Shown one piece after another: positions 48,171 through 51,124 of a DNA stretch of 64,000 nucleotides. The position numbers were made by a program, and so were the translations under genes. Origin of the DNA: Desulfonatronovibrio sp. (GTDB taxonomy: Bacteria > Desulfobacterota > Desulfovibrionia > Desulfovibrionales > Desulfonatronovibrionaceae); NCBI GenBank assembly GCA_003566455.1, contig PXDF01000063.1, forward strand, positions 1 through 64,000, written 5' to 3'. The notes under the pieces were generated by a model. The model made no database searches and was not told the origin of the DNA. It saw only the letters and a program-made list of their open reading frames with translations. The first letter of the stretch is position 1, and every line of letters begins with the position of its first letter.

Positions 48171-48641
48171 ATGCCCAAGAAATTTATCCTGATCCTTCTG
48201 GACGGCCTTGGAGATCGCTCTTATCAAAGGCTTGGAAACATGGCCCCGCTCCAGGCGGCTCATAGAAAGGATCCCTTTCTGAAAAAGAAAGTAATCGAGC
48301 AGTTGGATCTGGGTCTTGGCAAGTCTCTGGCACGGCTCATGGAAAGACAAGATGTCTTTGTGGCTTTGACATCCGATCATTCTACTCCCTGCAAGGGCGA
48401 CATGGTCCATTGCGGCGAGCCTGTGCCTTTGGCAATATACGGTAAAGGCGTGAGAGTTGATCATGTGAAAAAATTTGATGAAATATCTGTGGCCAAAGGT
48501 GCCCTGGGATTTGTCCGGGGCTTTGAGTTCATGTATATGGTTTTGAATTATCTGGATATGGGGAAGCTGACAGGCCTGATGGACACAACATATGATCAGC
48601 CTTACTGGCCCGGAAACTCTGTGCCGTTCAGGTTGTTCTGA
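48171..48641 (+). pseudogene. Internally deleted archaeal-type (ApgM) 2,3-bisphosphoglycerate-independent phosphoglycerate mutase
   Basis: N-term ILILLDGLGDRSYQRLGNMAPLQAA is joined directly to C-terminal AHRKDPFLKKKVIEQLDLGLG...FVALTSDHSTPCKGDMVHCGEPVPLAIYG; the central region is absent. Confidence 0.75.
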
Positions 48642-48706: not shown

Positions 48707-49561
48707 ATGAAAAGCGCGTTCCTGACGTGGGTCTTTTTTTTATTTGTCTGGACTTTGAATGTCCATGCCGTGACTGTTTCCATCCCTGAACAAGTTGGAC
48801 AGGGGGAGCCGTTCTGGGTGGAAATCAGTTCTGAACAAAAGCCTTTGTCCATAAATGTCAACTGGATGGACAAGGTTGTGGAATATCCGGTTGATCTTCC
48901 CGGAAAACAGAGAATTCTTTTGGGGGCAGGGCTGGATCATAAAGGAAAATATCCTTTGAACATTGTTTTTGATTTTCCAGAAGGGGTTTTAGACAAAAGC
49001 CTGCATATCAATATTGAGGAAAAGAATTATCCTGTTCAGCATCTGACCTTACCTGAATCCATGGTTACTCCTCCTCAGGAATTAATTGACAGGATAGTCA
49101 GGGAAAGGGAGAAAACCTTGGCCGCTCTGAATACTCTGAGCAAAAAGCGTTTCTGGTCAGACGAATTCGCCCGGCCCGTGCCTGGAGAGATCAGCTCTCC
49201 TTTCGGAGTGCGCAGGTTTTTAAACCAACAGCCCAGAGCCCCCCATAGAGGTGTAGACTTCAGAGGGCCTGAAGGCACACCGGTCAAGTCTCTGGACGCC
49301 GGAGTGGTTATCCTCACCGGAGACTTTTATTATGGTGGCCAGACAGTTATTATTGATCACGGCCTTGGCTTCCAGACTGTTTATATGCATTTGAGCAAAA
49401 TCAAGGTTAATGAAAAAGAACAAATATCCAAAGGAGATCTTGTTGGTCTGGTTGGAATGACCGGGAGGGCCACTGGTCCCCACCTGCACCTTGGGGTGTA
49501 TCTTCTCGGGGAGGCTGTTGATCCCATGTTTCTACTTGGGGGTCAGTTCAATCTTCAATGA
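48707..49561 (+). CDS. M23 family metallopeptidase (exported)
   Basis: Signal peptide; SSPFGVRRFLNQQPRAPHRGVDFRGPEGTPVKS, GMTGRATGPHLHLGVYLLG. Confidence 0.93.
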   Translation: MKSAFLTWVFFLFVWTLNVHAVTVSIPEQVGQGEPFWVEISSEQKPLSINVNWMDKVVEYPVDLPGKQRILLGAGLDHKGKYPLNIVFDFPEGVLDKSLHINIEEKNYPVQHLTLPESMVTPPQELIDRIVREREKTLAALNTLSKKRFWSDEFARPVPGEISSPFGVRRFLNQQPRAPHRGVDFRGPEGTPVKSLDAGVVILTGDFYYGGQTVIIDHGLGFQTVYMHLSKIKVNEKEQISKGDLVGLVGMTGRATGPHLHLGVYLLGEAVDPMFLLGGQFNLQ

Positions 49562-49931
49562 GCCGGTCCAGAATAAACCCGAAGAATATCGATTTACCCT
49601 CTGAATAATAGATCCAACCCATGTGAGAATGACAGGTGGAACAGAGCATGGTTTGCCAGGAATATCCTGGAAACCACGTAAATTCCAAGGTTTCAGGACC
49701 TGTTCCGTAAAGGTTTATGCCCCTGGAGAAACACCCCACTTCAAAGACCAGTCCAGCAGGGTTGACAAAAATATGGGTGTGGCTGCCGCTGATGCTTATG
49801 GACGCATCTTTCCATGTTATTTTGGTCTTGCAGGCTGAACAGAAAAGCGGCTTCTCCGGAAATCTGGTCCGTGTTTCGTTTTTTGTTTCATATTCCGGGG
49901 AAAATCCGGGATCAGGCTGAGCTCTGTACAT
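49548..49931 (-). CDS. CULT-domain (cereblon thalidomide-binding-like) protein
   Basis: CSACKTKITWKD, GSHTHIFVNPAGLVFEVGCF, EFTWFPGYSWQTMLCSTCHSHMGWIYYS: two CxxC and three-Trp pocket pattern. Confidence 0.85.
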   Translation of the reverse strand: MYRAQPDPGFSPEYETKNETRTRFPEKPLFCSACKTKITWKDASISISGSHTHIFVNPAGLVFEVGCFSRGINLYGTGPETLEFTWFPGYSWQTMLCSTCHSHMGWIYYSEGKSIFFGFILDRLIED

Positions 49932-50323: not shown

Positions 50324-51124
50324 ATGAATCAGATAACTGCGCCTGACATTATAATGAGTAAAAACAAGAAGAAGCTGGTTATGGTCACTGCTTATGATTA
50401 TTCCATGGCCAGGCTTGTGGACAGATGTGAAGTTGACATGGTGCTTGTGGGAGACTCCCTGGGCATGGTCAGTCTGGGTCATGAGGATACGCTTTCGGTT
50501 GGCATGAAAGAAATGCTTCATCATGCAATGGCAGTCAGTCGCGGGGTTAAAAAAGCACTTGTGGTAGCGGACATGCCGTTTATGTCTTATCAGGCCGGTG
50601 TCAGCAGAGCGGTTTTAAACGCGGGCAGGTTCTTGAAGGAAGCAAGGGCCGGAGCCGTAAAAATAGAGGGCGGTACAAGTGTGATCCCACAGGTCAAGGC
50701 CATGGTTGAAGCCGGGATACCGGTTACAGGGCATTTAGGGTTGATGCCTCAGAGTATTGCCATGTTCGGCGGATTCAAAGTTCAGGGGAGGGGAGCATCA
50801 AGGGGCATTATTCTATCTCAGGCCAGACAACTTGAAGAAGCCGGATGTTTTTGCCTGGTTCTGGAGGCGATCCCTCCGTCCCTTGCCGAGGAAATTACCA
50901 AAAGCATCAGTATCCCCACCATTGGTATTGGCGCGGGACCTTGTTGTGACGGTCAGGTCCTGGTCATAAACGATCTTCTGGGCATGAATGATGACTTTAC
51001 CCCCAGGTTTGTTAAAAAATATTCAGATCTTTCCAGAATGATCAGGCAGGCAGTATCCGCTTATGCCAGCGAAGTCAGATCCGGGGTATTTCCAGGCTCT
51101 GAACATTGTTACAAAGATGATTAG
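50324..51124 (+). CDS. panB: 3-methyl-2-oxobutanoate hydroxymethyltransferase
   Basis: MVTAYDYSMARLVDRCEVDMVLVGDSLGMV, PVTGHLGLMPQS, GIGAGPCCDGQVLVINDLLGM. Confidence 0.97.
   Translation: MNQITAPDIIMSKNKKKLVMVTAYDYSMARLVDRCEVDMVLVGDSLGMVSLGHEDTLSVGMKEMLHHAMAVSRGVKKALVVADMPFMSYQAGVSRAVLNAGRFLKEARAGAVKIEGGTSVIPQVKAMVEAGIPVTGHLGLMPQSIAMFGGFKVQGRGASRGIILSQARQLEEAGCFCLVLEAIPPSLAEEITKSISIPTIGIGAGPCCDGQVLVINDLLGMNDDFTPRFVKKYSDLSRMIRQAVSAYASEVRSGVFPGSEHCYKDD

Follow-up and report, generated by a model that had tools for sequence, protein, structure and literature searches.

A single-domain CULT protein with a predicted cereblon-type ligand pocket in Desulfonatronovibrio sp.

The window, by which we mean the whole analysed stretch of 64,000 nucleotides from a contig of Desulfonatronovibrio sp. 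(PXDF01000063.1), encodes a genuine single-domain bacterial CULT (cereblon thalidomide-binding-like) protein, and its gene was shown by computation to be solitary. This kind of protein has been known since 2014-2015 and the window protein is a new member of it. New here are the conservation of the pocket in samples collected pattern-free and a largely negative survey of the gene neighbourhoods. Targeted protein degradation makes wide use of the cereblon pocket as a handle. As the preferred reading, to which we give a probability of roughly 45%, the protein would read cyclic imides in the cytosol, those at the C-termini of damaged proteins being the most likely.

The gene product and its fold

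The CULT gene and its two flanking genes, the latter listed for context only, are the following.

49548-49931, minus strand: single-domain CULT protein (127 aa, from the ATG at 49931 to the stop)
48707-49561, plus strand: M23 peptidase, convergent neighbour (PF01551, 1.6e-30)
50324-51124, plus strand: panB, ketopantoate hydroxymethyltransferase, divergent neighbour (PF02548, 4.8e-110)

A sequence-only reading of this DNA had placed the open reading frame at exactly these coordinates without naming a strand, which is the minus strand. The two segments quoted in that reading, SHTHIFVNPAGLVFEVGCF and FTWFPGYSWQTMLCSTCHSHMGWIYYS, were found letter for letter in the translated protein, as were its two CxxC pairs (C31/C34 and C97/C100), and its three tryptophans are W86, W92 and W106. 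There is no in-frame ATG, GTG or TTG upstream of the start, and the first plus-strand frame of 49548-49931 is interrupted by stops. The final 14 bases of the gene overlap the M23 peptidase frame tail-to-tail, and the gene is present as a single copy in the 2.75-Mb assembly.

In a phmmer search against PDB chains the protein matched MsCI4 of Magnetospirillum gryphiswaldense at an E-value of 8e-23 and human cereblon (CRBN) chains at about 1e-11 to 1e-13, so that the significant match to CULT and cereblon sequences predicted from the sequence was obtained. The CULT domain occupies residues 27-127 and the protein consists of this domain alone. Since the N-terminal 26 residues contain (by eye) no hydrophobic signal-like stretch and are for the most part modelled with low confidence by AlphaFold, the protein is most likely cytosolic.

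The AlphaFold model was computed from an alignment of 62 sequences and has a mean pLDDT of 86.4; the block means rise to 90-98 once residue 31 is reached. It has the beta-tent fold according to Foldseek and to VIA superposition on MsCI4 (4v2y). Foldseek retrieved MsCI4 at 1.2e-11, and all 50 matches listed were MsCI4 or CRBN. VIA superposed the model on thalidomide-bound MsCI4 (4v2y_B) over 101 residues at 1.2 Å (Z 20.2) and on human CRBN chains over about 101 residues at 1.2-1.9 Å (Z about 18-19, 33-36% identity), including CRBN complexed with GLUL-cN (9nr3).

Predicted pocket and zinc residues

Four elements of the protein are discussed below, the CxxC pairs being assigned from the sequence and from their invariance in relatives, and the pocket segment from its equivalence to MsCI4 residues.

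49830-49841, minus strand: putative first zinc CxxC pair, C31-C34
49752-49763, minus strand: NPxG tip of the inserted hairpin, N57-G60 (N57 and P58 invariant)
49632-49643, minus strand: putative second zinc CxxC pair, C97-C100
49608-49685, minus strand: predicted ligand pocket segment, E83 to Y108

In MsCI4 the ligand is contacted by the backbones of F77 and W79, the cage of W79, W85 and W99, the hydroxyl of Y101, and E76 (PMC8900816). With the offset of 7 given by the phmmer and VIA alignments, E76, F77, W79, W85, W99 and Y101 correspond to E83, F84, W86, W92, W106 and Y108 of the window protein. The parallel to the thalidomide-binding segment of human cereblon drawn by the sequence-only reading therefore holds, W86, W92 and W106 being equivalent to the cage. 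Its expectation that the three tryptophans cluster is borne out insofar as the model superposes on MsCI4 and CRBN, in which the equivalent residues form the cage; by superposition and residue equivalence the window protein would thus have a Trp cage as well. By the same analogy Y108 predicts an extra hydrogen bond that is absent in human cereblon.

The conservation of these positions was assessed in 80 distinct CULT proteins from four phyla, called pattern-free here since the genome searches that gave them applied no motif filter, in all of which the four cysteines, N57, P58, W86, W92 and W106 are invariant. Position 108 is Tyr in 42 and Phe in 38 of them, position 83 is Glu in 56 and Asp in 10, and position 84 is Phe in 49. 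The four zinc-motif cysteines are also invariant in 80 relatives from the motif scan. That scan required [EDQ][FW][TS]WFxG[YFH]xW, which covers E83, F84, W86 and W92, and the invariance of W86 and W92 in this second set is thus built in. The entropy comparison used 62 motif-scan sequences and is hence partly circular. A ligand pocket in the window protein is strongly supported, and zinc and cyclic imide binding would be expected by analogy with MsCI4.

Two further cysteine positions were noted. C67 (49731-49733, minus strand), which follows the NPxG tip, is invariant in 62/62 motif-scan and in 72/80 pattern-free sequences, and another consensus cysteine (53/62 motif-scan sequences) is Leu74 in the window protein.

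The Pfam search reported no CULT model for the window protein, and the NCBIfam search gave no match. The sole Pfam match above cut-off was Yippee-Mis18 (PF03226, 28.4 vs 26.6 bits), on the strength of which the protein might be taken for a structural zinc-ribbon or Yippee-like protein that has lost ligand binding. However, the match aligns residues 89-113 to profile positions 53-77, that is 25 of 108 positions, all cage residues are present, the cage tryptophans are invariant in relatives, and the match to CULT structures (phmmer, Foldseek, VIA) is far stronger than this one, which makes this explanation highly improbable.

Distribution and gene neighbourhoods

In the window's own phylum, 41 of 395 genomes have a CULT match (E-value cut-off: 0.001). 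The phyla of a spirochaete (taken as Spirochaetota), of a Sulfuricaulis MAG (taken as Pseudomonadota) and of a Myxococcales MAG (taken as Myxococcota) yielded 32/247, 21/398 and 16/235, counts that include the centre genomes, which were picked for carrying CULT. Two of the 41 own-phylum matches are borderline (5e-4 and 8e-4); one of these two and one other of the 41 contain an internal stop, and one of the 32 spirochaete-phylum matches contains two. The motif scan of species genomes gave 436 confirmed CULT relatives, and among the best 80 of the 436, which were analysed, the nearest are copies from Desulfonatronospira MAGs (44-51% identical).

With regard to horizontal transfer, six phylum labels mapped on the CULT gene tree change 16 times, against a minimum of 5 and a mean of 62.5 for shuffled labels, in a tree with 76 of 153 branches unresolved. 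At the sensitivity used there was no match among 72,556 plasmids and 50,697 phage records, and none of 67 pattern stretches in viral contigs was confirmed; a mobile origin of CULT was rejected on the absence of such matches at the sensitivities used.

The sequence-only reading had seen no obvious pathway operon around the gene, and this agrees both with its position as a solitary gene between divergent panB and convergent M23 and with our survey. The same panB neighbour is present in 5 Desulfonatronospira loci and the same M23 neighbour in 6, and the recurrence of these flanks points to vertical inheritance within the Desulfonatronospira lineage. Genes for a D-Tyr-tRNA deacylase, a nifU-like protein, ferredoxin-thioredoxin reductase, glutaredoxin and a CBS protein lie farther out in the window. 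The promoter scan found 4 sites vs 1.9 expected and carries no weight in the reading given here. Separately, a 156-aa frame of the metalloenzyme (phosphoglycerate mutase/alkaline phosphatase) superfamily was observed at 48171-48641 (plus strand); it matches profile positions 160-251 of 252 only, its first residues resemble the usual start of the enzyme, and the frame may represent a copy that has suffered an internal deletion.

The survey comprised 160 CULT loci with 155 distinct CULT sequences, 80 from the motif scan and 80 pattern-free, the latter drawn from 28/32 spirochaete-phylum, 21/21 Sulfuricaulis-phylum, 15/16 Myxococcales-phylum and 16/41 own-phylum matches. Immediate neighbours of CULT were on the same strand in 157/308 cases vs 618/1035 for the remaining adjacent pairs at these loci (Fisher p 0.007), a comparison that includes five duplicate pairs and is approximate, since genes were called by longest open reading frame and some calls are spurious. 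No neighbour family was found at a fixed position across phyla in the 155 distinct loci; the few families present in three or four phyla were scattered in position and strand. Neighbours at fixed positions were limited to clades, namely cobA-hemD in one desulfobacterial clade, asparagine-synthase-like and EF-G-like genes (named by eye) in another, and panB and M23 in Desulfonatronospira. The search gave no protease partner, and a conserved operon partner was rejected because neighbours at fixed positions in the 160 loci were clade-specific.

Of the 157 same-strand immediate neighbours, 132 lie within 200 nt; 22 of these, mostly short or very long frames, were dropped by hand and the other 110 entered the Pfam scan. 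Two of the loci counted there, L087 and L183, belong to the same contig. HemD plus tetrapyrrole methylase domains occurred in 8 of these 110 neighbours, and at the inspected loci the cobA-hemD gene runs up to or into the CULT frame, a placement in some sulfate reducers from which a role of CULT in tetrapyrrole (siroheme or cobalamin) synthesis could be proposed. Yet the link was seen at 9 loci that all belong to Desulfobacterota, with none in other phyla, and it is absent in the window, so we regard such a role as very unlikely. CULT lies directly downstream of a fused cobA-hemD, with the ends overlapping or near, in L057, L061, L090, L094, L100, L104 and L108. An apparent CobA-HemD-CULT fusion in L057 (6592-8547) was rejected, since the two genes share one frame only through a frame slip near the hemD 3' end.

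A link to protein isoaspartyl methyltransferase (PIMT), which might generate the imide mark, was also considered. PF01135 matches all 395 genomes of the window's phylum under a loose criterion (E 0.001), so its presence there carries no information on such a link. In the contig of L087 and L183, from a spirochaete MAG, a PIMT-like gene downstream of an MlaE-type permease gene overlaps the CULT start on the same strand (L087, 9268-10366); its product is 30% identical to the PIMT of the window genome and falls under the NCBIfam equivalog cut-offs. The surveyed neighbourhoods yielded no second PIMT, which leaves 1 of 155 distinct loci against a chance expectation roughly estimated at 0.1 to 0.3. 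Close homologues of the L087 PIMT (E below 1e-35) were present in 45 of 59 relatives, that is in 28/29 with CULT and in 17/30 without, and this co-occurrence is explained by kinship, because the 13 relatives lacking both come last in kinship order. The gene pair did not recur in the relatives of L087. A functional link between PIMT and CULT was not relied on, the single adjacency being within chance and without recurrence.

Candidate ligands and comparison with known systems

According to the preferred reading, zinc held by C31, C34, C97 and C100 would pin two beta-sheets together into the beta-tent, and W86, W92 and W106 would make an aromatic cage with Y108 at its base, in which the backbones of F84 and W86 could grip a cyclic imide. 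The recognised mark would be a C-terminal aspartimide or glutarimide on damaged proteins or peptides. CULT might act by itself or might deliver its marked target to a repair enzyme or general protease whose gene lies elsewhere, a downstream partner that we infer. C-terminal cyclic imides are favoured as the native ligand because cereblon itself reads C-terminal aspartimide and glutarimide (PMC12117711, PMC13001092; C-terminal cyclic imide reading also in PMC11974815), because any cell can incur such damage, and because an invariant pocket encoded by a gene that stands alone is in keeping with a widespread ligand, an argument made by Lupas et al. 2015 (PMC4287342).

Against the reading of protein imides stands the affinity of MsCI4 for uridine, by which the pocket is not specific evidence for them. 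A pyrimidine ligand is accordingly the main rival, with CULT serving in uridine sensing, in uridine buffering or in the recognition of uracil in nucleic acid. MsCI4 is reported to bind uridine as it does thalidomide, with an affinity in the low micromolar range, and not to bind thymidine or cytidine (PMC4449219), and its deoxyuridine co-structure (PMC4449219; 4v31) was among the best Foldseek matches of our model. However, the authors of that report state that they were unable to place uridine in a biological context, and the 25 Pfam families met most often in the 110 close same-strand neighbours include none of pyrimidine metabolism; overall we consider a pyrimidine ligand unlikely.

Small-molecule or peptide cyclic imides, such as RiPP aspartimides, hydantoins, dihydrouracil or secondary metabolites, would make CULT a binding or immunity protein. 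PDB entry titles show that the MsCI4 pocket takes many such ligands (dihydrouracil, valerolactam, glutarimides), and one review considers, speculatively, a connection between aspartimidylated RiPPs and cereblon (PMC13001092). But no biosynthetic cluster lies beside the window gene and no biosynthetic neighbour recurs across the 155 distinct loci, and this proposal too appears improbable.

Beyond the single protein, the preferred reading could be extended to bacterial CULT proteins at large as solitary C-terminal-imide readers that would do in prokaryotes, without ubiquitin, what cereblon originally did, the connection to an E3 ligase having come later, in eukaryotes; we consider this extension doubtful, if less so than the rival ligands. 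The imides would arise from protein damage or through isoaspartyl methyltransferase, the CULT proteins would mark or shield damaged proteins, and the overlapping spirochaete PIMT-CULT pair would be an example of a link between writer and reader. In the literature searched (open-licence papers, among which structural and drug papers were found) there was no report of a native function for a bacterial CULT protein. That the pocket is so strictly conserved across four phyla, in a gene that has no fixed partners, argues for a native ligand that is common and widespread.

The closest characterised counterpart is MsCI4 (cereblon isoform 4, MGR_0879, 4v2y), likewise single-domain and about 40% identical over 101 residues, which has the cage tryptophans, the base tyrosine, the glutamate and the zinc cysteines in common with the window protein. 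The two differ in that the N-terminal 26 residues of the window protein are unaligned, the non-cage W36 and W59 of MsCI4 (PMC4449219) are A43 and G66, and the nearest relatives of the window protein are from Desulfonatronospira MAGs and not from alphaproteobacteria. Yippee/Mis18 proteins have a related beta-tent zinc fold (PMC4287342), whereas the window protein does not match their profile over its length. The human CRBN thalidomide-binding domain has the same fold and cage, but CRBN also has a LON domain and a DDB1-binding region, in place of which the window protein has 26 residues before its domain; His378 of CRBN corresponds to F84 and the Phe of its cage base to Y108. The bacterial group described by Lupas et al. 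2015 (PMC4287342) consists, like the window protein, of the CULT domain only and is mainly delta-proteobacterial; Desulfonatronospira thiodismutans is already in the alignment published there, and to this group the window protein adds a new sequence that shares 44-51% identity with the Desulfonatronospira MAG copies.
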